Source of the DNA: Comamonas antarctica
GTDB taxonomy: Bacteria; Pseudomonadota; Gammaproteobacteria; Burkholderiales; Burkholderiaceae_C
Length of the DNA stretch: 64,000 nt
NCBI RefSeq assembly: GCF_013363755.1
Contig: NZ_CP054840.1
Coordinates: 882,001-946,000 of the forward strand
Direction of reading: 5' to 3'
Shown: positions 1,557 to 18,597 of the stretch, in pieces
How the letters are laid out: the number at the start of each line of letters is the position of its first letter
Numbering within the stretch: position 1 is the stretch's first letter
Made by a program: the position numbers and the translations under genes
The notes under the pieces: model-generated
What the model was told of the DNA's origin: nothing
The model's input: the letters and a program-made list of their open reading frames with translations, nothing else
Databases searched by the model: none

Positions 1557-3092
1557 ATGAACACTTCTATCCCAAGCCGCAGGGCAAACCCCTTTGCGCT
1601 GCGTGCGTGCTATCTGCTGGGCGGCACGCTGCTGCTGTCCGGTTGCGCCAGCTTCAATGCCCAGCCCCTGACCGAAGCCGAGCTGCGCGACCAGGTGCAG
1701 GCCGACCAGCTGAAGCTGGCCCAGGACGTGGCGCCGCTTTCGGCCACGGTGAGCCTGGAAGAAGCCATTGCCCGCGCCATCAAGTACAACGCCGGCCAGC
1801 GCCTGCGCGCCATGGAAGAAGCGGTGGCCACCGGCACTTTCGAGGCGTCGAAGTACGACATGCTGCCCAAGGTCGTGGCCGCGGCCGGCTATCGCTACCG
1901 CGACCGCGACCTGATCACGCGCAGCGTCGACTCGGTCACGGGCCGTCCTTCGCTGGCCAACCCCTATATCTCCAGCGACCGCGATGCCACCACCGCTTCG
2001 CTGGGCTTTTCCTGGAGCCTGCTGGACTTCGGTCAGAGCTACTACGCCGCGCGCCAGCATGCCGACCGCGCGCTGATCGCGGGCGAGCGCCGCCGCAAGG
2101 CCATCCACACGCTGGTGCAGGACGTGCGCATCGCCTACTGGCGCGTGGCCGCGAGCCAGGCGCTCGAAGCCTCGCTGCGCGAAGCCAACAAGCAGGCCGA
2201 CTTGGCGCTCGACGATGTGCGCAAGGCCGAAGCCGAGAAGCTGCGCTCGCCCATCGAGCCGCTGCGCTACCAGCGCCAGTTGCTGGAGAACATGCGCCTG
2301 CTGGAAACCATCGAGCAGGAGCTGTCTTCGGCGCGCATCGAACTCGCCACCCTGATGGGCCTCGCACCCGGCCAGGCGACCACCGGCTGGAAGGTGGCCG
2401 AGCCGCAAGTGGCCGCCCACCAGAACTGGCTGAATCGCCCGGTGCAAGACATGGAAGCCCTGGCGCTGGTGCGCAACCCCGACCTGCGTGAAAGCCAGTA
2501 CGGCGCGCGCATCGCCCAGGAGGAAACCAAGCGCGTGATGCTGCGCATGTTCCCGGGCCTGTCGTTCAACTACGGCCTGAACCACAGCAGCGACAGCTAC
2601 CTGATCAACGACAGCTGGCGCGATGCCGGCCTGCAGATCTCGTTCAACCTGCTGGGCCTGCTGTCGATGCCCGCGCAAAAGCAGCTGGCCGAAGCCGGCG
2701 TGGAACTGGCCGACCAGAAGCGCATGGCCACGCAGATGGCCGTGTTGAGCCAGGTGCACATCGCGCGCCTGCAGTTCGCCAACGCCGTGCACCAGTACCA
2801 GCGCGCCGACACCATTGCCCAGGTCGACCAGCGCCTGGCGCAGCATGTCGACAACCAGGTGATCGCCGAGAAGCAGACCCGCCTGGACGGCGTGTCGCAG
2901 CAGACCGCCTCCATCCTGTCGACGCTGCGCCGCTACCAGGCGCTGTCGAACATGCAGGCCGCGGGTTCGCGCCTGCAGGCCACGCTGGGCATGGAGCCCG
3001 CGATCGACGGCTCGGACAGCCTGCCGCTGCCCGAACTGACCGCGGCCGTGGGCCAGGCGCTGCAGCGCTGGGAAGCAGGACAGCTGCAATGA
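1557..3092 (+). CDS. TolC-family outer-membrane efflux lipoprotein
   Basis: A 511-residue outer-membrane factor of the TolC/OEP family, predicted to form a trimeric channel through the outer membrane and periplasm. The N-terminus carries a lipoprotein signal with lipobox LLSGC, giving lipidation at Cys30. The rest is long alpha-helical segments rich in Ala, Gln and Glu with two OEP-like halves. It heads an operon: its last four bases (ATGA) overlap the start of the adaptor gene, so the two are translationally coupled. With the two adaptors and the membrane metalloprotease downstream, its likely job is export of the giant repeat protein encoded between them (inference). Ordinary drug efflux is less likely, since no RND or ABC pump is present. 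Confidence 0.85.
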   Translation: MNTSIPSRRANPFALRACYLLGGTLLLSGCASFNAQPLTEAELRDQVQADQLKLAQDVAPLSATVSLEEAIARAIKYNAGQRLRAMEEAVATGTFEASKYDMLPKVVAAAGYRYRDRDLITRSVDSVTGRPSLANPYISSDRDATTASLGFSWSLLDFGQSYYAARQHADRALIAGERRRKAIHTLVQDVRIAYWRVAASQALEASLREANKQADLALDDVRKAEAEKLRSPIEPLRYQRQLLENMRLLETIEQELSSARIELATLMGLAPGQATTGWKVAEPQVAAHQNWLNRPVQDMEALALVRNPDLRESQYGARIAQEETKRVMLRMFPGLSFNYGLNHSSDSYLINDSWRDAGLQISFNLLGLLSMPAQKQLAEAGVELADQKRMATQMAVLSQVHIARLQFANAVHQYQRADTIAQVDQRLAQHVDNQVIAEKQTRLDGVSQQTASILSTLRRYQALSNMQAAGSRLQATLGMEPAIDGSDSLPLPELTAAVGQALQRWEAGQLQ

Positions 3093-3871
3093 ACTCCCGC
3101 ATCCTTTGGACGCTGCTGGCCGGCGCTGCGCTGGCCCCGGCGCTGCAGGCGCAGACCGCACCCGCGCCGCGCGCCGGCGGCACGCTGCCCAGCGTGCTCG
3201 AGCAGCGCGAGATCCGCGCCCAGCTCGCGCCGCGGCGCTACACCACGCTGGCCGCCGAGATCGGCGCCAAGGTCCAGCGCCTGCCCGTGACCGAAGGCAG
3301 CGCCTTCCGCCAGGGCCAGCTGCTGGTGCAGTTCGACTGCAGCCTGCAGCAGGCGCAGCTCAACCGCGCCCAGGCCGGCCAGGACGTGACCGAGAAGACC
3401 TGGAAGGCCAACCAGCGCCTGGCCGAACTCAACTCCGTCGGCCGGATCGAACTCGATACCTCGCAGGGCGAATACCAGAAGGCGCGCGCCGAAGTCGCGG
3501 CCAACCGCAGCCTGCTGGGCAAGTGCCAGATCACCGCGCCCTACGCGGGCCGCATCGCCGAGCAGAAGATCCGCGAGCAGCAATACGCCCAGCCGGGCCA
3601 GGCGCTGCTCGACATCATCGACGACAGCGTGCTGGAGCTGGAGTTCCTCGTGCCTTCGCGCTGGCTCAGCTGGCTGCACCAGGGCACGGAATTCCAGGTG
3701 CGCATCGATGAAACCGGCAAGACCTATCCCGCCAAGGTGCAGCGCCTGGCGGCTCGCGTCGATCCGGTGAGCCAGTCCGTCAAGGTCAATGCCGCCATCC
3801 ATGGCCGCTTTGCCGAACTGATCGCCGGCATGAGCGGCCAGGTGCTGCTCAAGCCGCCAGCAGCGCAGTAA
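3089..3871 (+). CDS. periplasmic adaptor (membrane fusion protein, HlyD/RND adaptor type)
   Basis: A 260-residue periplasmic adaptor. It has a Sec signal peptide (about residues 1-22, ending ALQAQ), a biotinyl-lipoyl-like half (KVQRLPVTEG), a short helical hairpin (about residues 85-145), the second lipoyl half (ITAPYAGRI) and a beta-barrel domain. It is shorter than most HlyD/AcrA proteins (usually 370-480 residues) and lacks a cytoplasmic or membrane-spanning N-terminus, so it should be free in the periplasm or bound to partners. It starts inside the stop of the TolC-like gene and precedes the giant gene by 57 bases. It probably bridges the outer-membrane channel to the inner-membrane components encoded after the giant protein. 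Confidence 0.82.
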   Translation: MNSRILWTLLAGAALAPALQAQTAPAPRAGGTLPSVLEQREIRAQLAPRRYTTLAAEIGAKVQRLPVTEGSAFRQGQLLVQFDCSLQQAQLNRAQAGQDVTEKTWKANQRLAELNSVGRIELDTSQGEYQKARAEVAANRSLLGKCQITAPYAGRIAEQKIREQQYAQPGQALLDIIDDSVLELEFLVPSRWLSWLHQGTEFQVRIDETGKTYPAKVQRLAARVDPVSQSVKVNAAIHGRFAELIAGMSGQVLLKPPAAQ

Positions 3872-3928
3872 GAACCCCTCTCCAGAACAGCCGGTGCGGC
3901 TGAACCGTTACCTCTACAGGACATTGCC

Positions 3929-6900
3929 ATGAACTCGAAACGCCGCACTCTCTGGAGCCGCATGTTTGCCGCCGACGCCCAGGCCGCGGGGCCCTTGCCG
4001 GCCGCGCCCGTCGGCCTGGCCAGCAGCATGCGCCCGCTGGCGCTGGAGCAGCGCTTCATGTTCGACGGCGCCGCTGCGGTCGATGTGGCCCATGCGGCCG
4101 TCGATGCGGGCGCGCACGCTGCCGATGCGCAGGCCGAGGCGCCGCTGCATGCGCTGATGGCCGAAGCCGCCACCAGCGCCGCGCCCGCGCCGCGCAACGA
4201 GGTGGTGTTCATCGACAGCGCCGTGAAGGATTACGCGCAGATCGTGGCCAGCGTGCTGCCCGGCACCGAGGTCGTGCTGCTCGATGCGAGCCGCGACGGC
4301 GTGCAGCAGATGGCGCAATACCTGCAGGGCCGCAGCGGCATCGACGCCATCCATATCGTGAGCCACGGTGCCGATGGGCAGGTGCGCCTGGGCGCGAGCT
4401 CGCTGGAGCAATCCAACCTGTCCAGCTATGCGGCCGAGCTGGCGGCCATCGGCGCAGGCCTCACGGCCGATGGCGACATCCTGCTTTACGGCTGCAATAT
4501 CGCTGCGGATGCGCAGGGCCAGAGCTTCCTGGCGGCGCTGGCCGGCGCCACGGGCGCCGATGTCGCGGCATCTAGCAATGCCACGGGCGCGCAGGCGCTG
4601 GGCGGCGACTGGGTGCTCGAGCGCCAGTCCGGCCATATCGAAGCCGCGCTGCCCTTCGATGCCCAGCGGGTCGCGGGCTATGGCGAGCTGCTGGTGTCGC
4701 CGAGCAATGGTGTCACCAGCTTCGGTCCTGCGGTTCCTAACACCGACGATGTCGCATTGGGCGTCGGGCCGGGCAATGCCGGGGTGACGGCGCTGAACGT
4801 GGCCGGCACCGGGTGGGATATGAGCGTGAAGACCACGACAGCCGGCGAGATCGCCATCGGTATCGGCACTTTTTACCAGATAGACGGGAACAACATCTAT
4901 TACACGAGCACGCAGGGAGATATCACGCCACTGGAATCCTTCAGGGTGTCCTCCAACAATGGTTTCGTGTTCGATCTGCAGGGCATGCTGCTGTTCCTCG
5001 AGGCCAATGCCGTCAATTCCCAGGTGAAACTGCAGGTCACCGGCTACCGCAACGGTGTCGCGGTGGCCGGCGCCGCCAAGGAGTTCACGTTCGCGGTCGA
5101 CAGCGTGCACCAGGCACTGCAGACCATCAGCGTCCTGGACAACAGCAATTTCCAAGGCATCGACAGCTTTGTCATTACCCAGACCAGTGGCGCCGAAGTC
5201 GGCGTCCTGTTGATCGACAACATCGATGTGCAGAATGTGCGCGCGGCTTCGACGCCCACCGGTCTCTACAGCGGCGGAACCGTGGCAAGTTCCCCGACGA
5301 TCACGGGCGCGACGACCAACCAGCAGAGAACGGTCGTGGGCGACTTCAACAACGACGGAATCGACGACATCCTTTACCAGCCGGCGGGAACCGGTTCGGC
5401 GTGGGCGTATGCGCAAGGCAAGGAAGACGGCAGCTTCGAGATCAAGGCCATGAGCGCCTCGCCATTTGCCAGCGTGAGCGGAATGTTCGTGGAAGGCGCC
5501 AATAGCGGAAACAACTTCCAGGCTGCCGATTTCGATGGCGATGGCAGGATCGATCTGCTGGCCTCGGCCTCGAGCAATGGCGTCCCGGGGGTCACGCTTT
5601 ATCGCAACACGGGATCGGGATTCGTTGCCCAGCCGCTACCCGGTGGTCCGATGTATGGCGTGCGCACACTGGTCGGCGATTTCAATGGCGACAGCTTCGC
5701 GGATATCCTCTACCAAACCGATACCAGTTCGACGGCCACGTGGAGGATACGGCTGAACAACGGCAATGGCACCTTCAGCGACCTGGCGCTCGGTGACGCA
5801 CAGTCGCCATTCAGGAATGTGCAGTTGCCGGCCTTTGCCAGTTTGAATTACCAGGTCCTCGATGTCGATGGCGACGGTTATTCGGATCTCATCTACATAT
5901 CCAATGGAAGCCTGCGTTACTTCCACAACAACCACGGCATCATCGAAGAGATGCCGCTGGCGGGCATGCCCGCGCCCGGTTTCGGCGCCGTCATCCTGGC
6001 GGCAGACTTCGACAGCGATGGCGATGTCGACATCCTGTACCAGAACAGCACCACCGACTTCCGTTATGCGAGAAATGACAACGGTACGTTTGTCACGATG
6101 TTGGCGTCGGATTCCGCTTCGCCATTCCGCGCGCTCACGCTGAGCGGCGAGCTGCGCTACTACCGCGTTGGCGATTTCGATGGCGATGGAGATATCGATG
6201 TCTTCAAGACCACTCCCGGCACCGCCGGCAGCGTCTTCCTGCAAGGCGGCGGCCGGCCCCAGCTGGTCAGTGCCACCCCGGCCGACAACAGCGCCAGCGT
6301 TGCGCCCACGGCCAATATCACGCTGACCTTCGATCAAGGCGTGAGCAAGGGCACGGGCAATATCCAGATCGTGCGCACCAGCGATGGTGCCGTGGTGCAG
6401 ACGATTGCGGTGGGCAGCTCCGCTGTCACGGGCTCGGGCACCACCTGGACCATCGACCCGCCGGCCGACCTGGCCCAGGGCACGGGCTATTCGGTGCGCA
6501 TCGACGCCAAGTCCTTCGTCAGCGCCGACGGCAGGACCTACAAGGGGATTGCGGACAACGCCACGCTGAACTTCACCACCTCGAGCGTTCAGCCGCCCGT
6601 GATCGCCAACCTCAACGGCGACGCCGTCACCTACGTCGAAGACAGCGCCTATGTGCTGCTCGACGCAGGCGGCAACGCCGTGGTCACCGACGCCGACTCG
6701 GCGAACTTCAACGGCGGCAAGCTGACGGTGCAGATCACGGCCGGACTCTCCAGTGGCGAGGATGCGCTGTTCATCCGGGACCAGGGCGCGGGCGCCAACC
6801 AGATCGTGGTCAGTGGCGCGAGCATCCTGTACAACGGCCTGGTGATCGGCACCTTCGCCGGCGGCACCAACGGCAACCCGCTGGTGGTCACGTTCACCTC

Positions 6901-9900
6901 GAATGCCAACCCGACGACGGTTTCCGCGCTGGTGCAGAACCTGGCCTACCGCAACAGCAACACCATCGAGCCATCCACCACCCCGCGCACCGTGTCGATC
7001 AGCATGGATGACGGCGCGGGCGGCAGCAGCACGGTTGCCACGGTCGGCATCGAGGTGCATCCGGTCAATGACATGCCCGTGGTGGTCAACATCACCGCCA
7101 CCAACCCGACCTATACCGAGAACGCCTCCGCCGTGCAGCTGTTCTCCGGCGCGGCGATCAACACCATCGAATCCGGGCAGAGCGTGGTCCAGCTGGTCTT
7201 CACGGTCAGCGGCGTTGCCAACGGCGCCGCCGAGAAGCTGGTGATCGATGGCACCGACGTGGTCTTGGTCCAGGGCACCAATGTGACCACCGTCATCAAC
7301 GGCGTTACGGTCAAGGTTTCGGTGTCCGGTGGCACCGCCAGCGTCACGCTGGACAAAGCGGCCGGTCTTTCGACGGCGACGGCGCAGGCCATTCTCAACA
7401 GCATGGCCTACCGCAACGACAGCGAGAGCCCGAACACCGCGAACCGCGTCGTGACCCTGAGCACCGTGAGCGACAACGGCGGCAGCGCCGACGGCGGCCA
7501 GCCCACGGCGACCGTGGGCATCACCAGCACCGTGACCGTGGTGGGCATCAACGATGCGCCCATTCTCAGCGGCGGACCATACAACTTCGCAAGCATCAAC
7601 GAGGACACGACGGCCACGGGCGTCCGGGTCTCGACCGTGCTGGCCAACCACACCATGGTAGACCCCGACGCCAGCGCCCAGGGCGGCGTGGCGGTGATTG
7701 CCAAGACCGGCAGGGGCACCTGGCAGTATTCCACCGACAACGCGACGTGGACCGACTTTGGCGCGGTGTCGAACACCAGCGCGCTGCTGCTGGCCGCCAC
7801 GACCTATGTGCGCTACGTGCCGGATGCCGCCAATGGCGAGACCGCCACGCTCACTTTCCGCGGCTGGGACCAGACCATGGGCACCGCGTCCGTCAACGGC
7901 ATTCGCGGCCTGGCCGATACCACCAGCCATGGCGGCACCTCCGCGTTCTCCGTCGGTACCGGGGCAGTCAACCAGATCGTCACTTCGGTCAACGATGCAC
8001 CCTTCATGATCCCGGTGGCGCCGACGCTGAACGGGTTGACCGATACCGCGACGAACAGCAACGGCGCGCTGGTGAGCGACCTGCTGGGCGGTGTGACCGA
8101 TGTCGATACCGGCGCCCTCAAAGGCATGGCCGTCACCGGCCTGACCGCGACCTATGGCAAGTGGCAGTACAGCATCAATGCCGGCGGCACCTGGTCCGAC
8201 GTGGGCGCGGTGTCTGTCACTTCCGCGCTGATACTGACCGCCCAGAACTCCATTCGCTTCGTGCCCGATGGCATCCACGGCGAGACCGCGACCATTAGCT
8301 ACAAGGCCTGGGACCAGACCAACAGCACGCTGGGTCTGCAGGGCGCCAAGGTCGATACCACCACTTCGGGCGGCACCTCGGCGTATTCATCGGCCACCGA
8401 CACCGCGACCGTCGTGGTGGCCGCGATCAACGACCGGCCGGTAGTGTCGGTGTCCGGCGCGGCGGCGATCTGGACCGAAGGCAACAACGTCGCATCCAGC
8501 CGCAGCGTGGTCGACTCCGCCGTGACGGTCTCCGACGCCGACGGCCCCAACCCGCTCAGCGCCACGGTGCGGCTGCTCACCTATTACAGCGCCCAGGACA
8601 CGCTGGCCTTCGCCAACGACGGGTTCACCATGGGCAATATCGTCGGCACCTGGAGCGCCGGCACCGGTATCCTGACCCTGAGCTCGGCCGGCAACCAGGC
8701 GACCACGGCGCAGTTCCAGGCAGCGATGCGTGCCGTGACCTACGGCAACAGCTCGGATTCGCCAAACACCACCTCGCGCACCGTCCAGTTCCAGGTCACC
8801 GATGGCGGCGGCCTGTCCTCGATCGCCGTCACCCGCGATATCACCATCGTCGCGGTCAACGACTCGCCGACCATCAGCGCGCCCGCATCCCTGCAGTTGA
8901 ACGAAGACATTCCAACGGCGCTCGGCAACATCACCTTCAGCGATGTCGACTCGACCACCGGCACCGTCACGTTCTCGGTAGGCACCGGCACGCTCGGCGC
9001 GACCGGCGCCGGCGGCGTGACCGTGGGCGGCACGTCCACGGCGCTGACGCTCAGCGGCACCCTCGCCAACATCAACCAGTTCATTGCCAACAACCGCCTG
9101 GTCTATACCCCGGCGGCCAATGCCTCGGGCGACGTGACGCTGACGATCAACGTCAACACGACCAGCGTGTCCGACGCCACGACCACCATGACCCTGCAGG
9201 TCACCGCGGTCAACGACGCCCCAGTGGCCACCGTGCCGCCGAGCATCACCGTGACCGAGGACGTGGCCAGCGTCATCACCGGCATCAGCTTCACCGATGT
9301 CGATGCCGGCATCAACGTGGTCACGGCCACCTTCTCGGTGCCCAGCGGCACGCTGCAGGCCACCACCGGCATGGGTGTCACGGTCGCCGGCTCGGGCACG
9401 GGCGAACTGACGCTGTCGGGCAGCCTGTCCGACATCAACTTCTTCATTTCCGCCAACGGCCTGCGCTTCAAGACCGCGCAGGATGCGACCGCCAGCGTGC
9501 AGCTGACGGTAACGGTCAATGACCGGGGCAACAGCGGCACCGGCGGCGAGCAGACCAATACCAAGACCGTGACGCTGAATGTCACCGCGGTCAACGATGC
9601 GCCGGTCAACAACGTGCCTGCCGCGCAGACCGTGGGGCAGGGCATCGCGCTCGGATTCAACACCGCCAGCGGCAATGCGATCTCGATCAGCGATGTGGAC
9701 GCGGGCAACGGCCTGATCACGGTCACCCTGACCGCGGTCAACGGCACGCTGTCGCTGGGCAGCATGAGCGGCATCAACCTGGTGTGGGGCACCGGCGTCA
9801 ACAACGTCACCATGAGCTTCGAGGGCAACCGGGCCAACCTCAATGCCGCGCTGCAGACGCTGAGTTTCCGGGGGGCCAGCGGCTACATCGGCGCCGCCAG

Positions 9901-12900
9901 CATCACCATCGAGACCAACGACAACGGCAATTCGGGCACCGGCGGCGCGAAAAGCGATGTCGACACGGTCTCGATCAACGTCGTTCCCGTCAACCCCAAG
10001 ATCACCAGTGTTGCGGCGCAAGGCCTTGACCGCACCGTCAAGGTCGGCGACGAGGTGTTGGTCAACATGGTCTTCGACCAGGCCGTCAATGTCGACACGG
10101 CCGGCGGCACGCCCACGCTGCTGCTGGAGACCGGCCTTGTCGACCGCAGCGCGGTCTACCAGAGCGGCTCGGGCACGAACACGCTGGTCTTCAAGTACAC
10201 CGTGCAGGCCGGCGACATCAGCGCCGACCTGGACTTCCAGAGCACGGCGGCGCTGCAGCTCAATGGCGCGGTGATCAGCAACAGCACCAGCGACCTCGCC
10301 GTGCTCACGCTGCCCACCGTGGGCGGTGCCGATTCGCTGGGCGGGCGCAGCAGCATCGTGGTCGACGGCGTGGTACCCGTGGTGGGCAGCGTCGGCGTTC
10401 CCGCCGCTGGCACCTATGTCGCGGGCCAGAACCTGGACTTCAGCGTCAACTTCAGCGAGGCCATCACGCTGGACACCTCGGGCGGCACGCCGCGCATCGC
10501 GGTCACGCTCGATACCGGCGGCACGGTCTATGCGAGCTATGTATCGGGCAGCGGCAGCAGCGCGCTGGTGTTCCGCATGACCGTGGCCAGCGGCCAGCTC
10601 GATGCCAACGGCATCAGCGTCGGCACCGGCCTGGATCTCAACGGCGGCCGCATCACCGACCTGGCGGGCAATGCCGCCCAGCTCTCGCTCAATAGCGTGG
10701 GGAGCACGTCCGGCGTGCTCATCGATGCCATCGGGCCCACGGCCACCATCACGCTGGACGACACGGCGCTGCGCGCCGGCGAGACCGCGCAGGTCACGAT
10801 TGCGTTCAACGAAGCCGTGCGCGGCCTGGACCGGGCGGATTTCGATGTATCCGGCGGAACCCTGTCGAACCTGGCCAGCGCCGATGGCGGCAGGACCTGG
10901 ACCGCGACCTTCTCGCCCGACGCCGATGTCGAGCAGGCAGTGAACACCATCAGGCTGCGCAGCGGCGGCGTCATGGACGCCGCGGGCAATGCCAACGGCG
11001 CGGCCACATCGGGCAACTATGCGATCGATACCCGCCTGCCCACGGCCAGCATCGTGGTCGCCGACACGGCGCTGCGCCTCGGCGAGACCTCGCTGGTGAC
11101 CATCACCTTCAGCGAGGCGGTGACGGGCTTCACCAATGCCGATCTGACGGTGGCCAATGGCAGCCTGTCGGCAGTCACCAGCAGCGACGGCGGCATCACC
11201 TGGACAGCAACCTTCATGCCGGACGCGAATGTCACCGACACCAGCAATCTGATCGTGCTGGACAACACCGGCGTGGCCGACCTCGCGGGCAATGCGGGCA
11301 GCGGCGTCTCCACGTCCAACAACTACGCCATCGACACCCTGCGCCCGACGGCCACCATCGTGGTCGCCGACAACGCGCTTGCGGCAGGCGAGACCTCGCT
11401 GGTGACCATCACCTTCAGCGAAGCGGTGACGGGCTTCACCCGGGCCGATCTGACGGTGGCCAATGGCACGCTGTCGGCGGTCAGCAGCAGCGACGGCGGC
11501 ATCACCTGGACGGCGACCCTCACCCCCAACGTGAATGTCACCGACACCAGCAATGTGATCACGCTCGACAACACCGGCGTGGCCGACCTGGCGGGCAATG
11601 CGGGCAGCGGTACCACCGACTCGAACAACTATGCCATCGACAACCAGCGCCCGACAGCCAGCATCGTGGTCGCCGACAACGCGCTGGCGGCGGGCGAGAC
11701 CTCGCTGGTGACCATCACCTTCAGCGAGGCGGTGACGGGCTTCAGCAACGCCGATCTGTCGGTGGCCAATGGCACGCTGTCGGCAGTCAGCAGCAGCGAC
11801 GGCGGCATCACCTGGACGGCGACATTCACGCCGGACGCCGAGGTCACCGATACCACCAATCTGATCACTCTGGACAATACCGGCGTGGCCGACTTGGCGG
11901 GCAATGTGGGCACGGGTATGACCACGTCCAACAACTACGCCATCGACACCCAACGCCCAGCGGCAACCATCGTCATCGCCGACACGGCGCTGGCAGTGGG
12001 TCAAACCTCGCTGGTGACCATCACCTTCAGCGAGGCGGTGACGGGCTTCACCAATGCCGATCTGACGGTGGCCAATGGCAGCCTGTCGGCAGTCACCAGC
12101 AGCGACGGCGGCATCACCTGGACAGCAACCTTCATGCCGGACGCGAATGTCACCGACACCAGCAATCTGATCGTGCTGGACAACACCGGCGTGGCCGATC
12201 TCGCGGGCAATGCGGGCAGCGGCACCACCCAATCCAACAACTACGCCATCGATACCCAGCGCCCGACGGCCACCATCGCGGTCGCCGACGGCGCGCTGGC
12301 GGCGGGCGAGACCTCGCTGGTGACGATCAGCTTCAGTGAGGCCGTGACGGGCTTCACCAACGCCGACCTGTCGGTGGCCAATGGCACGCTGACGGATGTC
12401 GAGAGCCGCGATGGCGGCATCACCTGGACAGCAACGTTCACGCCCAACGCCAACATCACCGATGCCACGAATCTGATCACGCTGGACAACAGCGGCGTGG
12501 CCGATCTGGCGGGCAATGCGGGCAGCGGTACCACCGACTCGAACAACTATGCCATCGACAACCAGCGCCCGACAGCCAGCATCGTGGTCGCCGACAACGC
12601 GCTGGCGGCGGGCGACACCTCGCTGGTGACCATCACCTTCAGCGAGGCGGTGACAGGTTTCAGCAACGCCGATCTGTCGGTGGCCAATGGCACGCTGTCG
12701 GCAGTCAGCAGCAGCGACGGCGGCGTCACTTGGACGGCGACCTTCACGCCGGACGCGAACGTCACCGGCACGACCAATCTGATCGTGCTGGACAACACCG
12801 GCGTGGCCGATCTGGCGGGCAATGCGGGCGGCGGCACGACGGAGTCCAACAACTACGCCATCGACACGCTGCGCCCGACGGCCAGCATCGTCATCGCCGA

Positions 12901-15082
12901 CTCGGCGCTTCGCCTGGGCGAGACCTCGCTGGTGACCATCACCTTCAGCGAGGCGGTGACCGGTTTCAGCAACGCCGACCTGACGGTGGCCAATGGCACG
13001 CTGACGGAGGTTCAGAGCCGCGACGGCGGCATCACCTGGACGGCAACGTTCACGCCGACCAGCGATGTCACCGATGCCACGAATCTGATCACGCTGGACA
13101 ACAGCGGTGTGGCCGATCTCGCGGGCAATGCGGGCAGCGGCACCACCCAATCCAACAACTACGCCATCGATACCCGGCGCCCGACGGCCACCATCGTGGT
13201 CGCCGACAACGCGCTGTCGGCCGGCGAGACCTCGCTGGTGACGATCAGCTTCAATGAGGCCGTGACGGGCTTCAGCAACGCCGACCTGTCGGTGGCCAAT
13301 GGCACGCTGACGGATGTCGAGAGCCGCGATGGCGGCATCACCTGGACGGCAACGTTCACACCCAACACCAACATCACCGATGCCACGAATCTGATCACGC
13401 TGGACAACGCCGGCGTGGCCGATCTGGCGGGTAATGCGGGCAGCGGCACCACCCAATCCAACAACTACGCCATCGACACCCAGCGCCCCACGGCCACCAT
13501 CACGGTCGCGGACACCGCGCTGCAGTCCGGCGAGACCACCGAGGTGACGATTGCATTCAGCGAAGCCGTGAACGGCCTGGAGCTGTCGGACTTCGAGGTC
13601 GCCAACGGCAGCCTGTCGGGCCTGGCCACCGCCAACGGCGGCCTGACCTGGACGGCCGTGTTCACGCCCGGCGCCAACGTGGAGCAGGCCGGCAATGCGA
13701 TCACGCTGCGCAGCGGCGCGGTGAGCGATGCCGCGGGCAACGCGATCAGCGGCGCCACGCCCTCGAACGGCTACGCCATCGACACGAAGCTGCCCACGGC
13801 CCGCATCACGGTGGCCGACACGGCGCTGAAGGCTGGCGAAACGGCACAGGTCAGCATCGTGTTCAGCGAACGCGTGCAGGGCCTGGACCTGGCTGACTTC
13901 ACGGTCGCCCACGGCACGCTGTCCGATCTGCGCACGCAGGACGGCATCACCTGGACGGCCACGCTCACGCCTAATGCAGGCGTGCAGGCCGCAGACAACC
14001 GCATCGTGCTGAACAACGCGGGCTACACCGACCTGGCCGGCAACTCCGGCGTGGGCTCGACACCGTCCGAAGGCATTGCCATCGATACCCAACTGCCCAC
14101 GGCCAGCATCGTGCTGCAGGACGGCGAACTGCTGGCCGGCATGACCACCGAGGTCACCATCGTGTTCAGCGAGCCCGTGCAGGGCCTGGACCTGTCGGAC
14201 TTCACGGTGCCCAATGGCACGCTGAGCGATCTGCGCAGCACGGACGGCATCACCTGGAAGGCCACGCTGACGCCGGCCAACGACGTGCAGGCGAACTCGA
14301 ACCTGATCCGCCTGAACAACGCCGGCTATACCGATCTGGCGGGCAATACCGGCGTGGGCGAGACCGGCTCCGACAGCTACGCCGTCGCCACCGCGCCGGT
14401 GCCGAACGCCACCATGGCGCCCGCGCCCATCGCGCTGCCCACGGTGCCGGGCCTCGCCAGCGTCCAGCTGTCGCCGGCGCAGGGCGAAGCCACGTCCAGC
14501 GACTTTGGTTTCCTGTCGCCGGCCAATGACAATGCCTTGCTGTCGCCGCTGAGCTCTCCGCTGGCCCTGGCGCTGGCCGGCTTCTCCGAGCTGCCGCTGG
14601 CCACGCGCGAGACGGTATCGCCCGAAACCGCGCAGCAGGCGGCGCAGGCGCCCTATGTGCCGCAGCCGATTTCCCGCACTGCGGGCGCGCCCGAAGGCCT
14701 GCAGCTGCTGCGCAGCGTCAACGACCTGAGCATTGGCGAAGGCGGCCAGCTGGCGTGGAAGGTGCCAGCCAACGTGTTCGGCCACACCAACCCGCTGGCC
14801 GTGGTGAGCCTGAGCATGACGCTGGCCGATGGCCGGCCGCTGCCGCAGTGGGTGAGGTTCGATGCGCGCACCGGCACGCTGCAGGTTCAGCTGCCCGAGG
14901 GCTGGCGCGGCGACCTGGTGCTGCAGCTCACGGCGCGCGACAACCAGGGCAATGAAGTGAAGACCACGGTGAGGCTCAAGCCCGGCGCCCAGGCGGCCGC
15001 GCGCGCGGGCCTGGCCGAGCAGTTCCAGCGTGCCGCCCTGCAGCGCGCGGGGGGTGCCGCAGGCCAGCGCCTGCAGGGCTGA
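3929..15082 (+). CDS. giant multidomain surface/secreted repeat protein (DUF4347, FG-GAP, cadherin-like and Ig-like repeats)
   Basis: This 3717-residue protein has no Sec signal. The first 50 residues are basic and Ala-rich and hold LEQRFMFDGAA, the N-terminal motif that commonly precedes DUF4347 in giant exported proteins. Reading on: DUF4347 about 90-250, with HIVSHGADG and LYGCNIA; six FG-GAP/VCBS-type acidic loops (DFDGDG...D) at about 465-770, probable calcium sites; one Big_5-like domain at about 778-885; cadherin-like repeats at about 890-2025 joined by AVNDAP linkers; two divergent Ig-like domains to about 2268; twelve Ig-like repeats of about 102 residues (2270-3487); and a C-terminal putative Ig/cadherin-like domain. 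I see no RTX GGxGxD nonapeptides. It is probably a calcium-stiffened adhesin or matrix protein exported by the flanking genes (inference). Confidence 0.85.
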   Translation: MNSKRRTLWSRMFAADAQAAGPLPAAPVGLASSMRPLALEQRFMFDGAAAVDVAHAAVDAGAHAADAQAEAPLHALMAEAATSAAPAPRNEVVFIDSAVKDYAQIVASVLPGTEVVLLDASRDGVQQMAQYLQGRSGIDAIHIVSHGADGQVRLGASSLEQSNLSSYAAELAAIGAGLTADGDILLYGCNIAADAQGQSFLAALAGATGADVAASSNATGAQALGGDWVLERQSGHIEAALPFDAQRVAGYGELLVSPSNGVTSFGPAVPNTDDVALGVGPGNAGVTALNVAGTGWDMSVKTTTAGEIAIGIGTFYQIDGNNIYYTSTQGDITPLESFRVSSNNGFVFDLQGMLLFLEANAVNSQVKLQVTGYRNGVAVAGAAKEFTFAVDSVHQALQTISVLDNSNFQGIDSFVITQTSGAEVGVLLIDNIDVQNVRAASTPTGLYSGGTVASSPTITGATTNQQRTVVGDFNNDGIDDILYQPAGTGSAWAYAQGKEDGSFEIKAMSASPFASVSGMFVEGANSGNNFQAADFDGDGRIDLLASASSNGVPGVTLYRNTGSGFVAQPLPGGPMYGVRTLVGDFNGDSFADILYQTDTSSTATWRIRLNNGNGTFSDLALGDAQSPFRNVQLPAFASLNYQVLDVDGDGYSDLIYISNGSLRYFHNNHGIIEEMPLAGMPAPGFGAVILAADFDSDGDVDILYQNSTTDFRYARNDNGTFVTMLASDSASPFRALTLSGELRYYRVGDFDGDGDIDVFKTTPGTAGSVFLQGGGRPQLVSATPADNSASVAPTANITLTFDQGVSKGTGNIQIVRTSDGAVVQTIAVGSSAVTGSGTTWTIDPPADLAQGTGYSVRIDAKSFVSADGRTYKGIADNATLNFTTSSVQPPVIANLNGDAVTYVEDSAYVLLDAGGNAVVTDADSANFNGGKLTVQITAGLSSGEDALFIRDQGAGANQIVVSGASILYNGLVIGTFAGGTNGNPLVVTFTSNANPTTVSALVQNLAYRNSNTIEPSTTPRTVSISMDDGAGGSSTVATVGIEVHPVNDMPVVVNITATNPTYTENASAVQLFSGAAINTIESGQSVVQLVFTVSGVANGAAEKLVIDGTDVVLVQGTNVTTVINGVTVKVSVSGGTASVTLDKAAGLSTATAQAILNSMAYRNDSESPNTANRVVTLSTVSDNGGSADGGQPTATVGITSTVTVVGINDAPILSGGPYNFASINEDTTATGVRVSTVLANHTMVDPDASAQGGVAVIAKTGRGTWQYSTDNATWTDFGAVSNTSALLLAATTYVRYVPDAANGETATLTFRGWDQTMGTASVNGIRGLADTTSHGGTSAFSVGTGAVNQIVTSVNDAPFMIPVAPTLNGLTDTATNSNGALVSDLLGGVTDVDTGALKGMAVTGLTATYGKWQYSINAGGTWSDVGAVSVTSALILTAQNSIRFVPDGIHGETATISYKAWDQTNSTLGLQGAKVDTTTSGGTSAYSSATDTATVVVAAINDRPVVSVSGAAAIWTEGNNVASSRSVVDSAVTVSDADGPNPLSATVRLLTYYSAQDTLAFANDGFTMGNIVGTWSAGTGILTLSSAGNQATTAQFQAAMRAVTYGNSSDSPNTTSRTVQFQVTDGGGLSSIAVTRDITIVAVNDSPTISAPASLQLNEDIPTALGNITFSDVDSTTGTVTFSVGTGTLGATGAGGVTVGGTSTALTLSGTLANINQFIANNRLVYTPAANASGDVTLTINVNTTSVSDATTTMTLQVTAVNDAPVATVPPSITVTEDVASVITGISFTDVDAGINVVTATFSVPSGTLQATTGMGVTVAGSGTGELTLSGSLSDINFFISANGLRFKTAQDATASVQLTVTVNDRGNSGTGGEQTNTKTVTLNVTAVNDAPVNNVPAAQTVGQGIALGFNTASGNAISISDVDAGNGLITVTLTAVNGTLSLGSMSGINLVWGTGVNNVTMSFEGNRANLNAALQTLSFRGASGYIGAASITIETNDNGNSGTGGAKSDVDTVSINVVPVNPKITSVAAQGLDRTVKVGDEVLVNMVFDQAVNVDTAGGTPTLLLETGLVDRSAVYQSGSGTNTLVFKYTVQAGDISADLDFQSTAALQLNGAVISNSTSDLAVLTLPTVGGADSLGGRSSIVVDGVVPVVGSVGVPAAGTYVAGQNLDFSVNFSEAITLDTSGGTPRIAVTLDTGGTVYASYVSGSGSSALVFRMTVASGQLDANGISVGTGLDLNGGRITDLAGNAAQLSLNSVGSTSGVLIDAIGPTATITLDDTALRAGETAQVTIAFNEAVRGLDRADFDVSGGTLSNLASADGGRTWTATFSPDADVEQAVNTIRLRSGGVMDAAGNANGAATSGNYAIDTRLPTASIVVADTALRLGETSLVTITFSEAVTGFTNADLTVANGSLSAVTSSDGGITWTATFMPDANVTDTSNLIVLDNTGVADLAGNAGSGVSTSNNYAIDTLRPTATIVVADNALAAGETSLVTITFSEAVTGFTRADLTVANGTLSAVSSSDGGITWTATLTPNVNVTDTSNVITLDNTGVADLAGNAGSGTTDSNNYAIDNQRPTASIVVADNALAAGETSLVTITFSEAVTGFSNADLSVANGTLSAVSSSDGGITWTATFTPDAEVTDTTNLITLDNTGVADLAGNVGTGMTTSNNYAIDTQRPAATIVIADTALAVGQTSLVTITFSEAVTGFTNADLTVANGSLSAVTSSDGGITWTATFMPDANVTDTSNLIVLDNTGVADLAGNAGSGTTQSNNYAIDTQRPTATIAVADGALAAGETSLVTISFSEAVTGFTNADLSVANGTLTDVESRDGGITWTATFTPNANITDATNLITLDNSGVADLAGNAGSGTTDSNNYAIDNQRPTASIVVADNALAAGDTSLVTITFSEAVTGFSNADLSVANGTLSAVSSSDGGVTWTATFTPDANVTGTTNLIVLDNTGVADLAGNAGGGTTESNNYAIDTLRPTASIVIADSALRLGETSLVTITFSEAVTGFSNADLTVANGTLTEVQSRDGGITWTATFTPTSDVTDATNLITLDNSGVADLAGNAGSGTTQSNNYAIDTRRPTATIVVADNALSAGETSLVTISFNEAVTGFSNADLSVANGTLTDVESRDGGITWTATFTPNTNITDATNLITLDNAGVADLAGNAGSGTTQSNNYAIDTQRPTATITVADTALQSGETTEVTIAFSEAVNGLELSDFEVANGSLSGLATANGGLTWTAVFTPGANVEQAGNAITLRSGAVSDAAGNAISGATPSNGYAIDTKLPTARITVADTALKAGETAQVSIVFSERVQGLDLADFTVAHGTLSDLRTQDGITWTATLTPNAGVQAADNRIVLNNAGYTDLAGNSGVGSTPSEGIAIDTQLPTASIVLQDGELLAGMTTEVTIVFSEPVQGLDLSDFTVPNGTLSDLRSTDGITWKATLTPANDVQANSNLIRLNNAGYTDLAGNTGVGETGSDSYAVATAPVPNATMAPAPIALPTVPGLASVQLSPAQGEATSSDFGFLSPANDNALLSPLSSPLALALAGFSELPLATRETVSPETAQQAAQAPYVPQPISRTAGAPEGLQLLRSVNDLSIGEGGQLAWKVPANVFGHTNPLAVVSLSMTLADGRPLPQWVRFDARTGTLQVQLPEGWRGDLVLQLTARDNQGNEVKTTVRLKPGAQAAARAGLAEQFQRAALQRAGGAAGQRLQG
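10735..14390 (+). repeat. tandem 306-bp coding repeats (12 Ig-like units) with a 918-bp higher-order period
   Basis: Twelve consecutive units encode Ig-like domains with the pattern RPTA.I.VAD.AL..GET..VTI.FSEAV and end with NYAIDT. Eight central units (11017-13464) are exactly 306 bp. The outer units are diverged and of slightly different length. Units three apart are the closest relatives: 11087-11280 matches 12005-12198 with no mismatch I can see; about 11588-11815 nearly matches 12506-12733; and the 12241 unit closely resembles the 13159 unit. This indicates recent duplication of a three-unit, 918-bp block. Confidence 0.92.
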
Positions 15083-15094
15083 TGAAGGATGGCG

Positions 15095-16480
15095 ATGAGT
15101 GCTCAGATCGCGCCCGGTGGCGTGCATCCCGCGGTCCTGCTGCTCGAGCTGGGCCACCGTGCCCGGCAGGCGAAAAGCGTGGCCGAGCTGGAGTTCATGC
15201 TGGTCAACGACACGCGCCTGCTGCTGCCTTACCGCCAGGCCGTCTGGTGGAACCAGCAGCAGGGCGTGGCCGCCTTGTCCGGTGTCATGCAGCCCGACCG
15301 CAACGCACCGTATGCGCAGTGGGTGGCCCAGGTGTGCGCGCATCTGGCGCAGGCCGAGGCCGCCGAAGTCCGCGCGGTGGGACCGGCCGATCTGCCGCCG
15401 GCGCTGGCGGCGCAGTGGGCGCAATGGCTGCCGGCGGCGGCGGTCTGGGTGCCGCTGTCGGCCATACCCAGCGGGAGTGAGGCTGCAAGCGCCGGCGCCA
15501 CCGGCAGGGCAGGGCTGCTGCTGGCCGGCGCCGAATCGCCCGAACGCTGGACGTTTCTCAAGGAATGGGGCGGCGTCTGGACGCACGCCTGGCAGGCCCT
15601 GCAGCGCCGGCGCGGCTGGACACCGCTGCAATGGTGGCGCGGACTGCGCCAGCGCCAGGCGCAGCAGGTCTGGTGGCGCAAGCCCGCGGCCTGGGCCGTG
15701 GCCGGCGTGCTGGTGCTGGCCGCCTGGCCCGTGCGCCTGTCGGTGCTGGCGCCGGGCGAGCTGGTCGCTTCGCAGCCGGCCGTGCTGCGTTCGCCGCTCG
15801 ATGGCGTGGTCGAACAGGTGCATGTGCAGCCCAACCAGATGGTGAAGAAGGGCGAACTGCTGTTCAGTCTCGACGAGGCGCAGATCGCGAGCCGGCTCGA
15901 AGTGTCGCAGCAGGCGCTGCAGACCGCCGAAGCCGAGTACCGCCAGTTCGCGCAGCTGGCGCTGGGCGATGCGCGCTCGAAGTCGCAGCTCGCGGCCCAG
16001 GCCGGGCGCATCGGGGAGCGCCGCGCCGAGCAGGCCTTCCAGTCCGAGCAGCGCCAGCGCGCGCAGGTCGTGGCGCCGCAGGACGGCATGGTGCTGTTCG
16101 ACGCGCCTTCGGAGTGGATAGGCAAGCCGGTGCAGACCGGCGAGCGCGTGATGCGCATCGCCCAGCCCGACGCGGTCGAGATCGAAGCCTGGCTGCCGAT
16201 CGGCGACGCGATCCCGCTCGCGCCGGGCGCGCCGGTGCAGCTGTATCTCGCGGCCGATCCGCTGGCTTCGATCGAGGCGCGCATCCGCTATGTCGCGTAC
16301 GACGCGGTGGCGCGCCCCGACGGCTCATACGCCTACCGCGTGCGCGCCGAGGTGACGCAGGCCGGCAAGGCGCGCATCGGCCTCAAGGGCACGGCCAAGC
16401 TCCAGGGCGAGCGCGTGAGCCTGGCTTACTGGGTTCTGCGCAAGCCCTGGGCCAGCGTGCGCCAGTGGGTGGCGCTGTGA
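15095..16480 (+). CDS. inner-membrane HlyD-type adaptor with long cytoplasmic N-terminus
   Basis: A membrane fusion protein of 461 residues from ATG 15095. That start is preferred over ATG 15089 because GAAGGA lies 5 bases before it. Residues 1 to about 195 are soluble and probably cytoplasmic, with a GAF-like look. One transmembrane helix follows (about 200-220, WAVAGVLVLAAWPV). Then come a lipoyl-like half (LRSPLDGVVEQVHVQPNQMV), a short coiled-coil hairpin (about 268-325), the second lipoyl half and a beta-barrel domain. It starts 12 bases after the giant gene stop and overlaps the next gene by four bases. It likely contacts the M50 protein in the inner membrane and the TolC-like channel outside (inference). 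Confidence 0.8.
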   Translation: MSAQIAPGGVHPAVLLLELGHRARQAKSVAELEFMLVNDTRLLLPYRQAVWWNQQQGVAALSGVMQPDRNAPYAQWVAQVCAHLAQAEAAEVRAVGPADLPPALAAQWAQWLPAAAVWVPLSAIPSGSEAASAGATGRAGLLLAGAESPERWTFLKEWGGVWTHAWQALQRRRGWTPLQWWRGLRQRQAQQVWWRKPAAWAVAGVLVLAAWPVRLSVLAPGELVASQPAVLRSPLDGVVEQVHVQPNQMVKKGELLFSLDEAQIASRLEVSQQALQTAEAEYRQFAQLALGDARSKSQLAAQAGRIGERRAEQAFQSEQRQRAQVVAPQDGMVLFDAPSEWIGKPVQTGERVMRIAQPDAVEIEAWLPIGDAIPLAPGAPVQLYLAADPLASIEARIRYVAYDAVARPDGSYAYRVRAEVTQAGKARIGLKGTAKLQGERVSLAYWVLRKPWASVRQWVAL

Positions 16481-18597
16481 CGCCAGGCGCGCCCTGGGCG
16501 CTGCTGCGCGAGGAGCTGGACCTGCTGCCCGGGCCGGTGCTGCCCGATGGCCAGCCCAGCTGGACGCTGCACGATCCGGTGCGCAACCTGTTCTTCCAGC
16601 TCGACTGGGCCAGCTTCGAGCTGCTGCGGCGCTGGCATCTGGCCGATGCCGGCGCCATCGAGGCCGATATCGCGGCGCAGACCACCTTGCATGTGGGCGC
16701 GGCCGAGGTGCAGGCGATGCAGCAATTCCTGCAGGCCAATTCGCTGCTGCAGCCGGCGATGCACAGCGCCGCCAGCTGGGCCGCGCAGCGCGAGCAGCGC
16801 CGCGCCAGCAAGCTGCAGTGGCTGCTGCACAACTACCTGTTCTTCCGCATTCCGCTGTTGCGCCCCGACGGCTGGCTCGGGCGCATCACGCCGGCGCTGG
16901 AATTCCTCTTTCGCCCCGCGTTCTGGTGGCTCACGGCGCTGGCCTTCGTCTGGGGGCTGTGGGGCGTGTCGCGCTCCTGGGATGCGTTCACCGCCACCTT
17001 TGTCGACCTGCTGACGCTGCAGGGCTTCGTGGCCTACGGCATCACGCTGCTGTTCGTGAAGTTCCTGCATGAGGTCGGGCATGGCGTGACGGCCAAGCGC
17101 TATGGCTGCCGCGTGCCGACGATGGGCCTGGCGTTCCTGGTGCTGTGGCCCGTGGCCTATACCGACACCAACGAGGTCTGGAAGCTCACCGACCGCGGCC
17201 AGCGCGTGCGCGTGGCCGCGGCCGGCATCACCACCGAGCTGCTGATCGCGGTGTGGGCGCTGCTGGCCTGGCTCTGGCTGCCCGAAGGCTGGCCCAAGGC
17301 CATGGCCTTTTTGCTGGCGACCACGACCTGGGTCAGCACGCTGGTGATCAATGCCAGCCCGTTCATGCGCTTCGACGGCTACTTCCTGCTGTCGGACTAT
17401 CTGCAGATGCCCAACCTGCATGCGCGCGCGTTTGCACTGGCGCGCTGGGATTTGCGGGAGCGGCTGTTCCGGCTGGGCGAGCCCGCACCCGAATACTTTC
17501 CCGCGCCGAAGCGGCGCGCGCTGGTGCTGTTTGCCTGGGCCACCTGGATCTACCGGCTGGTGCTGTTTCTCGGCATCGCGGCGCTGGTGTACCACTTCTT
17601 CATCAAGGCCCTGGGCATCTTTCTCTTTCTGGTGGAAATCGTGTGGTTCATTGCCAAGCCCCTGTGGTCCGAAATCAAGGCCTGGCGTGAACGCGCGCCG
17701 AAGATCGCACGCAGTGCGCGCGCGCGGCGCAGCGCGCTGATCGCCGCGCTGCTGGCCTTGCTGCTCTTCGTGCCCTGGCCCGTGCCGGTGCTGTCGAGCG
17801 GACTGCTGCAGGCGCGCGAACTCTGGCCGCTGCATGCGCCCGAGGGCGCGCAGCTGCTGCAGGCGCCCCCGGCCGAGGGCACGCCCGTGGCCGCGGGCGC
17901 GCCGCTGTTCGCGCTCGAGTCGCCGGCGCTGCGCGCCGCGGCGGCGGTGAGCCAGGCGCGGCTGCAGCAGGTCGCGCAGCAGTCGGCCGCGGCCGGGTTC
18001 GATGGTGAACTGCGGCGCGACTGGCAGGTCTTGCAGGAACGCCAGGCCGAGGCGCTGGCGCAGCAGGACGCGGTCGACAGCGACGCCGCGCGCTTTCGGC
18101 TCCGGGCCGGCGGAGCAGGGCAGTTGCGCGATGTCGACCCCGATCTGCGCGCCGGCGAATGGGTGGCGCGGCGCGAGCTGCTGGGGCGCGTGGTGGGCAG
18201 CGCAGGCCAGGAAGTCGTGGCCTATGTGCCCGAGGACACGCTGTACCGCATCCGTGCGGGCGACAGCGGGCTGTTCATCGCCGAAGGCGGTGCGGGCCCG
18301 GTGCTGGAGCTGCGCGTGCGCAGCATCGACCAGGATGCCAGCCGCAGCCTGAACGAGGCCGCGCTGGCGACGACGGCAGGCGGCAACGTGCCGGTGCGCA
18401 GCATGCAGAACGTGCTCTATCCCGAGCGCCCGGTGTACCGCGTGGTGCTGGACGTCGTGGCGTCCGAGCCATCGGCGGCGCTCGCCGCCCAGCACCGCTG
18501 GCGCGGGCGCGTGAGCATACGCGGCCGGTGGGAGGCGCCCGGAGCGCAGTTCGTGCGCCAGGCGGCAAGCGTTTTCTGGCGCGAGGCCGGGTTCTAG
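16477..18597 (+). CDS. M50 (site-2 protease) membrane metalloprotease fused to PqqD-like and HlyD-like domains
   Basis: From GTG 16477, which overlaps the preceding stop as GTGA, the protein has 706 residues. Residues about 5-90 resemble the PqqD/RRE winged-helix fold, which in peptide-maturation systems binds leader peptides. A polytopic membrane region follows, with the zinc motif HEVGH (His198, Glu199, His202) and the second M50 motif N..P....DG (Asn292 to Asp300-Gly301), so the catalytic residues look intact. After the last helices near residue 440, the C-terminal third has a lipoyl-like segment, a helical hairpin and a barrel as in adaptor proteins. This architecture recurs beside HlyD genes in peptide and protein export loci (family knowledge). 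Here it may replace the missing ABC exporter or process the giant protein (inference). Confidence 0.82.
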   Translation: MTPGAPWALLREELDLLPGPVLPDGQPSWTLHDPVRNLFFQLDWASFELLRRWHLADAGAIEADIAAQTTLHVGAAEVQAMQQFLQANSLLQPAMHSAASWAAQREQRRASKLQWLLHNYLFFRIPLLRPDGWLGRITPALEFLFRPAFWWLTALAFVWGLWGVSRSWDAFTATFVDLLTLQGFVAYGITLLFVKFLHEVGHGVTAKRYGCRVPTMGLAFLVLWPVAYTDTNEVWKLTDRGQRVRVAAAGITTELLIAVWALLAWLWLPEGWPKAMAFLLATTTWVSTLVINASPFMRFDGYFLLSDYLQMPNLHARAFALARWDLRERLFRLGEPAPEYFPAPKRRALVLFAWATWIYRLVLFLGIAALVYHFFIKALGIFLFLVEIVWFIAKPLWSEIKAWRERAPKIARSARARRSALIAALLALLLFVPWPVPVLSSGLLQARELWPLHAPEGAQLLQAPPAEGTPVAAGAPLFALESPALRAAAAVSQARLQQVAQQSAAAGFDGELRRDWQVLQERQAEALAQQDAVDSDAARFRLRAGGAGQLRDVDPDLRAGEWVARRELLGRVVGSAGQEVVAYVPEDTLYRIRAGDSGLFIAEGGAGPVLELRVRSIDQDASRSLNEAALATTAGGNVPVRSMQNVLYPERPVYRVVLDVVASEPSAALAAQHRWRGRVSIRGRWEAPGAQFVRQAASVFWREAGF

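Follow-up and report, generated by a model that had tools for sequence, protein, structure and literature searches.

We identified a five-gene module in a window of 64,000 nucleotides from Comamonas antarctica (NZ_CP054840.1, positions 882,001 to 946,000; G000:C1:882001-946000 in a 5.03 Mb genome that is 99.86% complete). Its open reading frames (ORFs), all on the plus strand, encode a TolC-family lipoprotein, a short HlyD-type adaptor (HlyD1), a giant repeat protein, a second adaptor (HlyD2) and a fusion of an M50 protease with an HlyD domain. Based on sequence comparison and predicted structures, we give a nearly even chance to the reading that the module and its relatives carry out export of LEPR-tagged giant surface proteins that is guided by an RRE (recognition element of ribosomally synthesized and post-translationally modified peptides, RiPPs), powered by SecA and coupled to TolC through HlyD proteins. 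That this is an undescribed Gram-negative system, in which the RRE reads an LEPR-XLL-like N-terminal tag, SecA pushes the chain, M50 removes the tag and the HlyD arm leads to TolC, is a more tentative proposal, with the balance tilted somewhat against it.

The operon and its recurrence

Throughout, ORFs were read stop to stop in six frames. The start of the M50 gene was taken as the GTG at 16477, which overlaps HlyD2 by 4 bases (the stop-to-stop frame is 1010 aa from an upstream ATG). The genes of the operon are as follows.

1557..3092, plus strand: TolC-family outer-membrane factor, 511 aa (OEP PF02321, 4.9e-30)
3089..3871, plus strand: HlyD1, short periplasmic adaptor, 260 aa (HlyD_3, 1.4e-20; RND_mfp TIGR01730 over cut-off)
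3929..15082, plus strand: giant substrate, 3717 aa (Pfam matches; ORF)
15089..16480, plus strand: HlyD2, 463 aa (HlyD_3, 3.2e-21; hydropathy)
16477..18597, plus strand: RRE-M50-HlyD fusion, 706 aa (Peptidase_M50, 1.6e-09; HlyD_3, 2e-10; hydropathy)

The TolC and HlyD1 ORFs overlap by 4 bases, the giant follows HlyD1 after 57 bases and HlyD2 follows the giant after 6 bases; a Pfam scan of the operon proteins detected no ABC gene. The initial annotation had described five genes on one strand, with 4-base overlaps or intervals no longer than 57 bases and no ABC ATPase among them, and its coordinates and family assignments were confirmed. An LSGC near the N-terminus of the 511-aa TolC-family protein is, by eye, what we take to be a lipobox-like motif. 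By hydropathy, HlyD1 has no transmembrane stretch over threshold, and HlyD2 comprises a soluble N-terminus of about 200 residues, one predicted transmembrane segment near residues 205-222 and the HlyD domain. Pfam gave no GAF match in the window HlyD2, and GAF was found in all three distant homologues tested.

A scan of genome contigs recovered and confirmed at least 587 relatives of the M50 fusion, from which 80 loci were kept, mostly from beta- and some from gammaproteobacteria and many ending at contig edges. A second-adaptor gene lies beside the M50 gene in 79 of these 80 loci (the exception, L030, starts 68 bases before the M50 match), and TolC and the short adaptor are present in loci that extend far enough. 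With so many relatives and so constant a second adaptor, the operon arrangement is not due to chance. The window genome also has a second, divergent copy of the module on the minus strand (approximately C1:2303410-2322679; L092, L093 and L098) with giant, TolC, HlyD1, HlyD2 and M50, the giant being a 4366-residue open frame with an N-terminal LEPRLLFDGA and no DUF4347 match. Further instances of the module were found in Cupriavidus metallidurans CH34 (NC_007974.2, near 2137-2154 kb), Azospirillum thermophilum and Escherichia coli plasmid NZ_CP146666 from a human colon isolate (L142: NZ_CP146666.1 123285-157559), where RefSeq annotates a 4459-residue Ig-like protein (which matches DUF4347 too), TolC and three adaptors. 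Matches to the M50 fusion include 18 Escherichia, 8 Citrobacter and other plasmid records.

Co-occurrence was surveyed in 220 genomes of the order that were at least 97% complete, with M50 fusions divided by us into close (at least 410 bits) and distant (at most 192 bits). The close fusion was found in 27 genomes, DUF4347 in 36 and both in 25. DUF4347 was thus present in 25 of the 27 close-fusion genomes versus 11 of the 193 others (Fisher p 3e-22, a kind of value that overstates independence since the surveyed genomes are related), and 23 of 58 DUF4347 matches have an M50 fusion at most 40 kb away. The co-occurrence proposed in the initial annotation was therefore recovered, whereas its definition of the substrates as DUF4347-type was not, the constant features being terminal tags and the RRE domain. 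DUF4347 was rejected as an export signal, as it is lacking from two of the 27 close-M50 genomes (G179 and G312, where the same operon holds a giant that bears the C-terminal signature) and occurs in nine genomes without any M50 fusion. Neither tag was found in the six DUF4347 giants read from genomes without M50 (L105-L110), and their C-termini differ; the module thus tracks tagged giants and not DUF4347 as such. Five of these six giants (L105, L106, L107, L108 and L110) share another C-terminal pattern, several ending in ...TDWDFxV, which we take to resemble the end of a type I substrate. These different endings suggest two or more routes of export for DUF4347 proteins.

Terminal tags and the M50-HlyD fusion

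The following elements of the giant and of the fusion carry the proposed reading.

4037..4081, plus strand: LEPR-XLL-like N-terminal tag LALEQRFMFDGAAAV, residues 37-51 of the giant (alignment of 30 giants)
14699..15034, plus strand: C-terminal He_PIG/CADG-like domain, then C-tail RAGLAEQFQRA at about 15002-15034 (alignment A1, 43 giants)
16492..16755, plus strand: RRE (PqqD-like) domain, residues 6-93 of the M50 protein (predicted fold)
17068..17379, plus strand: M50 active-site motifs HEVGH and NASPFMRFDG (residues invariant in relatives)

The N-tag has the consensus L-E-x-R-x-M-F-D-G-A (the x after E being Q or P), of which L, E, R, F, D and A are invariant in the 30 aligned giants. When compared to the NCBIfam LEPR model (LEPR-8K; NF012209), 23 of the 30 N-tags matched LEPR-XLL at E <= 0.1. 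The window tag, LEQRFMFDGA, scored 12.9 bits and stays below the cut-off of 17, which was exceeded by the second giant of the window genome (21.9 bits) and by two distant-branch giants (34.4 and 27.3 bits), as in LEPR-XLL proteins. Since six distant-branch giants with a visible N-terminus (L114, L115, L146, L148, L150 and L156) carry it too, the N-tag is a feature common to both M50 branches. Among the 80 loci, 30 giant-like frames have their N-terminus within the locus: the N-motif was present in 22 and a looser motif in L043 and L047, and none was found in L023, the second L024 frame, L064, L073, L077 (a run of N) and the second L080 frame.

At the other end, all 43 aligned giants matched He_PIG at E <= 1, and in the close branch a C-tail with the consensus G-R-x-G-L-S-E-Q-L-R follows the CADG-like domain. 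The strict C-tail pattern gave 45 matches in 1.53 million ORF residues, each at most 70 residues from the ORF end, the motifs and patterns of both termini having been drawn from the same sequences on which they were counted. A loose C-motif was found in 43 of the 55 giant-like frames with an in-locus C-terminus (80 loci). Of the remaining 12, seven are near variants by eye, three (L023, the second L024 frame and L047) are other proteins or a fragment, and the giant-like frames L046 and L048 lack the motif. The C-terminal signature alone was rejected as a marker of the system, as alignment A1 also catches CADG domains of the ordinary kind, with matches at E <= 1e-5 in 48 of 220 genomes; the comparison with M50 covered matches of at least 73 bits.

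The fusion protein, by hydropathy and Pfam, has a predicted cytoplasmic RRE, an M50 core with several transmembrane segments, a last such segment near residues 423-435 and a periplasmic HlyD domain. M50 (site-2) proteases are recognized by HExxH plus a distal N...DG motif. Both motifs are present here, PF02163 is matched over cut-off, and the catalytic H, E, H, N and D are invariant in 97 sequences (82 close and 15 distant members). The N-terminus is predicted to adopt an RRE/PqqD fold of the type that binds leader peptides, as its structure model has the three-strand winged-helix arrangement of that fold, and the Pfam PqqD cut-off was exceeded by three of six distant-branch M50 members.

SecA, ABC exporters and alternative readings

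A candidate motor was found in the sister (distant) branch. On a Pseudosulfitobacter plasmid (L143/L156, NZ_CP085155.1 43731-88342), the distant M50 gene (PqqD-M50) is directly followed by a SecA-like gene of 660 residues, and the same cluster encodes a 12,738-residue Ig protein with an LEPR-XLL tag, DUF3467 and a GAF-HlyD adaptor. Across 66 genomes, a second SecA was present in all 16 with distant M50 versus none of 50 others (p 1.2e-15), and it lies within 3 kb of 19 of 22 distant M50 loci. In a survey of 232 genomes of the class, 13 of the 14 short SecA-like matches listed adjoin a distant M50 match (two frames, of 594 and 637 aa, were assigned to housekeeping SecA, with which their alignment agrees); among the matches listed, there is no short SecA in eight distant-M50 genomes (G086, G166, G227, G042, G045, G143, G218 and G072). 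The short paralogue is about 650-760 aa, and the SecA motifs Walker A and DEAD are kept in 13 of 13. One further SecA match (G035:C1:2262416-2263885) falls within a 24,580-residue open frame, which may be a masked or unusual stretch. An apparent M50-SecA fusion in L154 was discarded, the two matches being in different reading frames and hence two genes. The conduit of the distant branch is less clear, as OEP was matched in just one of 10 neighbouring frames scanned (L153).

These findings are consistent with a mechanism in which the RRE would bind the N-tag on the cytoplasmic side, much as RiPP enzymes do with their leader peptides. ATP hydrolysis by SecA (a dedicated SecA in the sister branch, the housekeeping SecA here) would drive the chain across the inner membrane, probably via SecYEG, and M50 would trim the N-tag in the membrane. 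The HlyD arms may then pass the chain to TolC, with M50-HlyD, HlyD2, HlyD1 and TolC forming a tripartite-style conduit. The late C-terminal CADG domain and the GLSEQLR tail could signal the end of export or hold the protein at the surface, and DUF4347 may add caspase-like self-processing.

Several observations weigh against this reading. Extra SecA genes stand beside none of 30 close-M50 matches, and the window branch lacks a SecA of its own; 21 of 27 close-M50 genomes have a single SecA, as has the window genome, which places it outside the SecA-linked branch, and the split between close and distant M50 is long (branch length 1.9, support 0.99). The SecA motor of the window branch is therefore inferred from the sister branch. 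For the RRE, Foldseek returned no RRE match at E <= 0.001, and the curated Pfam PqqD cut-off (PF05402) was reached by none of 32 close-branch members; with a PDB sequence search also giving no match, sequence-only evidence for the RRE was dropped. The distant-branch giant-like frame L161 (4418 aa) has no N-tag, and no classical signal peptide is evident by eye at the N-terminus of the giant. The C-terminal signature reached at least 73 bits in 21 genomes, four of which have no close M50 (G082, which has a distant M50, G276, G317 and G402). ABC exporters, to which we now turn, provide further points of this kind.

ABC genes were sought in the 80 loci by two motif patterns only, which detected ABC-type motifs in three loci: a dipeptide importer (L042) and two type I exporters (L017 and L027, both Rhodocyclaceae-type loci). 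The L017 gene (L017:12133-14340) is an HlyB-like type I ABC, below cut-off, 33 bp downstream of M50, and that of L027 (L027:14079-15980), also downstream of M50 and at a distance of about 2 kb, is of the PrtD type and exceeds its cut-off. An LssB-type ABC was found over cut-off in 12 of 27 close-M50 genomes, and two such genes are present in the window genome; at E <= 1e-120 an LssB-type match occurs in 22 of the 27. These genes would suit type I secretion in trans, in which an LssB/HlyB-type ABC from elsewhere exports the giant and M50-HlyD only processes or regulates, a reading that we consider unlikely. Each of the two LssB genes in the window genome has its own repeat-rich giant frame nearby, and the L017 ABC, too, has its own repeat-rich frames, which come after it. 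Moreover, G179, a one-contig, 100% complete genome of the same genus, carries the operon (its giant without DUF4347), yet none of its six PF00664 (ABC_membrane) proteins exceeded a type I cut-off in a search that did not extend to MacB-type and other ABC classes. These six are a cyanophycin-associated transporter, MsbA, CydD, two MsbA-like proteins and a 394-aa frame without family. Two other candidate ABC-free genomes were set aside, G245 because a PrtD-type ABC over cut-off was found and G375 because just four of eight PF00664 proteins were classified, so that G179 alone stands. The initial annotation had left room for a conserved ABC exporter elsewhere in the genome; with type I ABC genes in two of 80 loci and none over cut-off in G179, the comparisons speak against an ABC exporter as a conserved partner of the module.

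Another reading keeps the fusion as a processing or release device: the giant would cross the membrane otherwise, and RRE-M50-HlyD would cleave a terminal tag in a manner like RiPP maturation. RREs usually act in the maturation of peptides, the motifs of the protease do not vary among members, and the nearest NCBIfam model to the M50 protein is a daptide-biosynthesis protease (daptide_HExxH, NF041824; E 4e-46, residues 56-393, 157.9 bits, below the curated cut-off of 300 bits). By contrast, three HlyD-type adaptors and TolC in one tight operon resemble a conduit, and the locus has no further conserved exporter gene; we regard this as improbable, if the strongest of the rivals. The least probable is the one nearest to the initial annotation, that M50-HlyD does the translocating, energized by the proton gradient and without any SecA or ABC motor. 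It accords with the close branch, where no ATPase is conserved nearby, as the counts of ABC motifs and extra SecA genes given above indicate. The invariant catalytic residues speak against it, as a mere channel would not need them, and the sister branch needs or keeps SecA; to our knowledge, no intramembrane protease translocates proteins this large. Thus, of the distinct route with a protease as inner-membrane component that had been envisaged, the lack of an ABC exporter in the module stood, whereas the sister branch's dedicated SecA-like ATPase makes a SecA-type motor at least as likely to drive translocation.

Domains of the giant and relation to known systems

The giant comprises, besides its N-tag, DUF4347, FG-GAP, cadherin-like and Ig-like (Big_12) repeats, the C-terminal CADG-like (He_PIG) domain and the C-tail. 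Pfam matched DUF4347 (3.1e-59), Big_12 in 12 stretches, FG-GAP_3 and, weakly, a cadherin-like domain. Two further features of its gene are:

4202..4693, plus strand: DUF4347, residues 92-255 of the giant (PF14252, 3.1e-59)
11014-13968: 306-bp tandem array (repeat analysis)

DUF4347 of the window giant scored 199.8 bits against the PF14252 cut-off of 24.6. It is predicted to have a caspase-like (clan CD) fold with a conserved His and Cys, based on a model (pLDDT 95.3) with fold matches to caspase-like proteins and on an alignment in which the His (SHG) and Cys (YGC) are invariant in 26 of 26 sequences. Downstream of the module, same-strand ORFs from position 18597 of the window on resemble, by eye, a branched-chain amino-acid uptake operon.

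Type I secretion (HlyB-HlyD-TolC, or LapB-LapC-LapE for LapA-type adhesins) has in common with the module a TolC-family factor, HlyD adaptors and a giant repeat-rich substrate with a conserved C-terminus. The module differs in having no conserved ABC exporter encoded with the substrate, and in its pair of HlyD proteins in the inner membrane (one of them the RRE-M50 fusion), its N-tag and the SecA of its sister branch. Neither Pfam nor NCBIfam gave an RTX repeat or LapA retention match for the giant; some type I substrates lack such families too. The daptide protease MpaP (NF041824) and the epipeptide protease YydH/LiaK have a related M50 core; by contrast, the module protein falls below both curated cut-offs and adds an HlyD arm, and its substrate is several thousand residues long rather than a small peptide. 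The predicted fold is shared with RRE/PqqD domains, but is here fused to a membrane protease-adaptor, next to a giant gene rather than a RiPP-modifying enzyme. In Gram-positive bacteria, SecA2 of the accessory Sec system exports serine-rich repeat adhesins. The distant branch resembles that system in its dedicated SecA paralogue beside giant repeat-protein genes, and differs in being Gram-negative, with HlyD adaptors, an RRE-M50 partner and a short paralogue.

No description of the module was found in the open-access literature searched, which excluded preprints, covered few subscription papers and did not have LEPR-XLL among its topics; the RRE-Finder paper (PMC7470986) makes no mention of M50, HlyD, protease, SecA, secretion or adhesin. 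With this and with no type I ABC exporter as a conserved partner, the system is predicted to be new in kind. If the proposed reading is correct, a large set of proteobacterial giant surface proteins would leave the cell neither by type I secretion nor by another described system, and the orphan LEPR-XLL tag would gain a role. RRE domains would reach beyond peptide natural products to the export of proteins thousands of residues long, a Gram-negative SecA paralogue would be tied to tripartite export, and an intramembrane protease would become part of a secretion machine.

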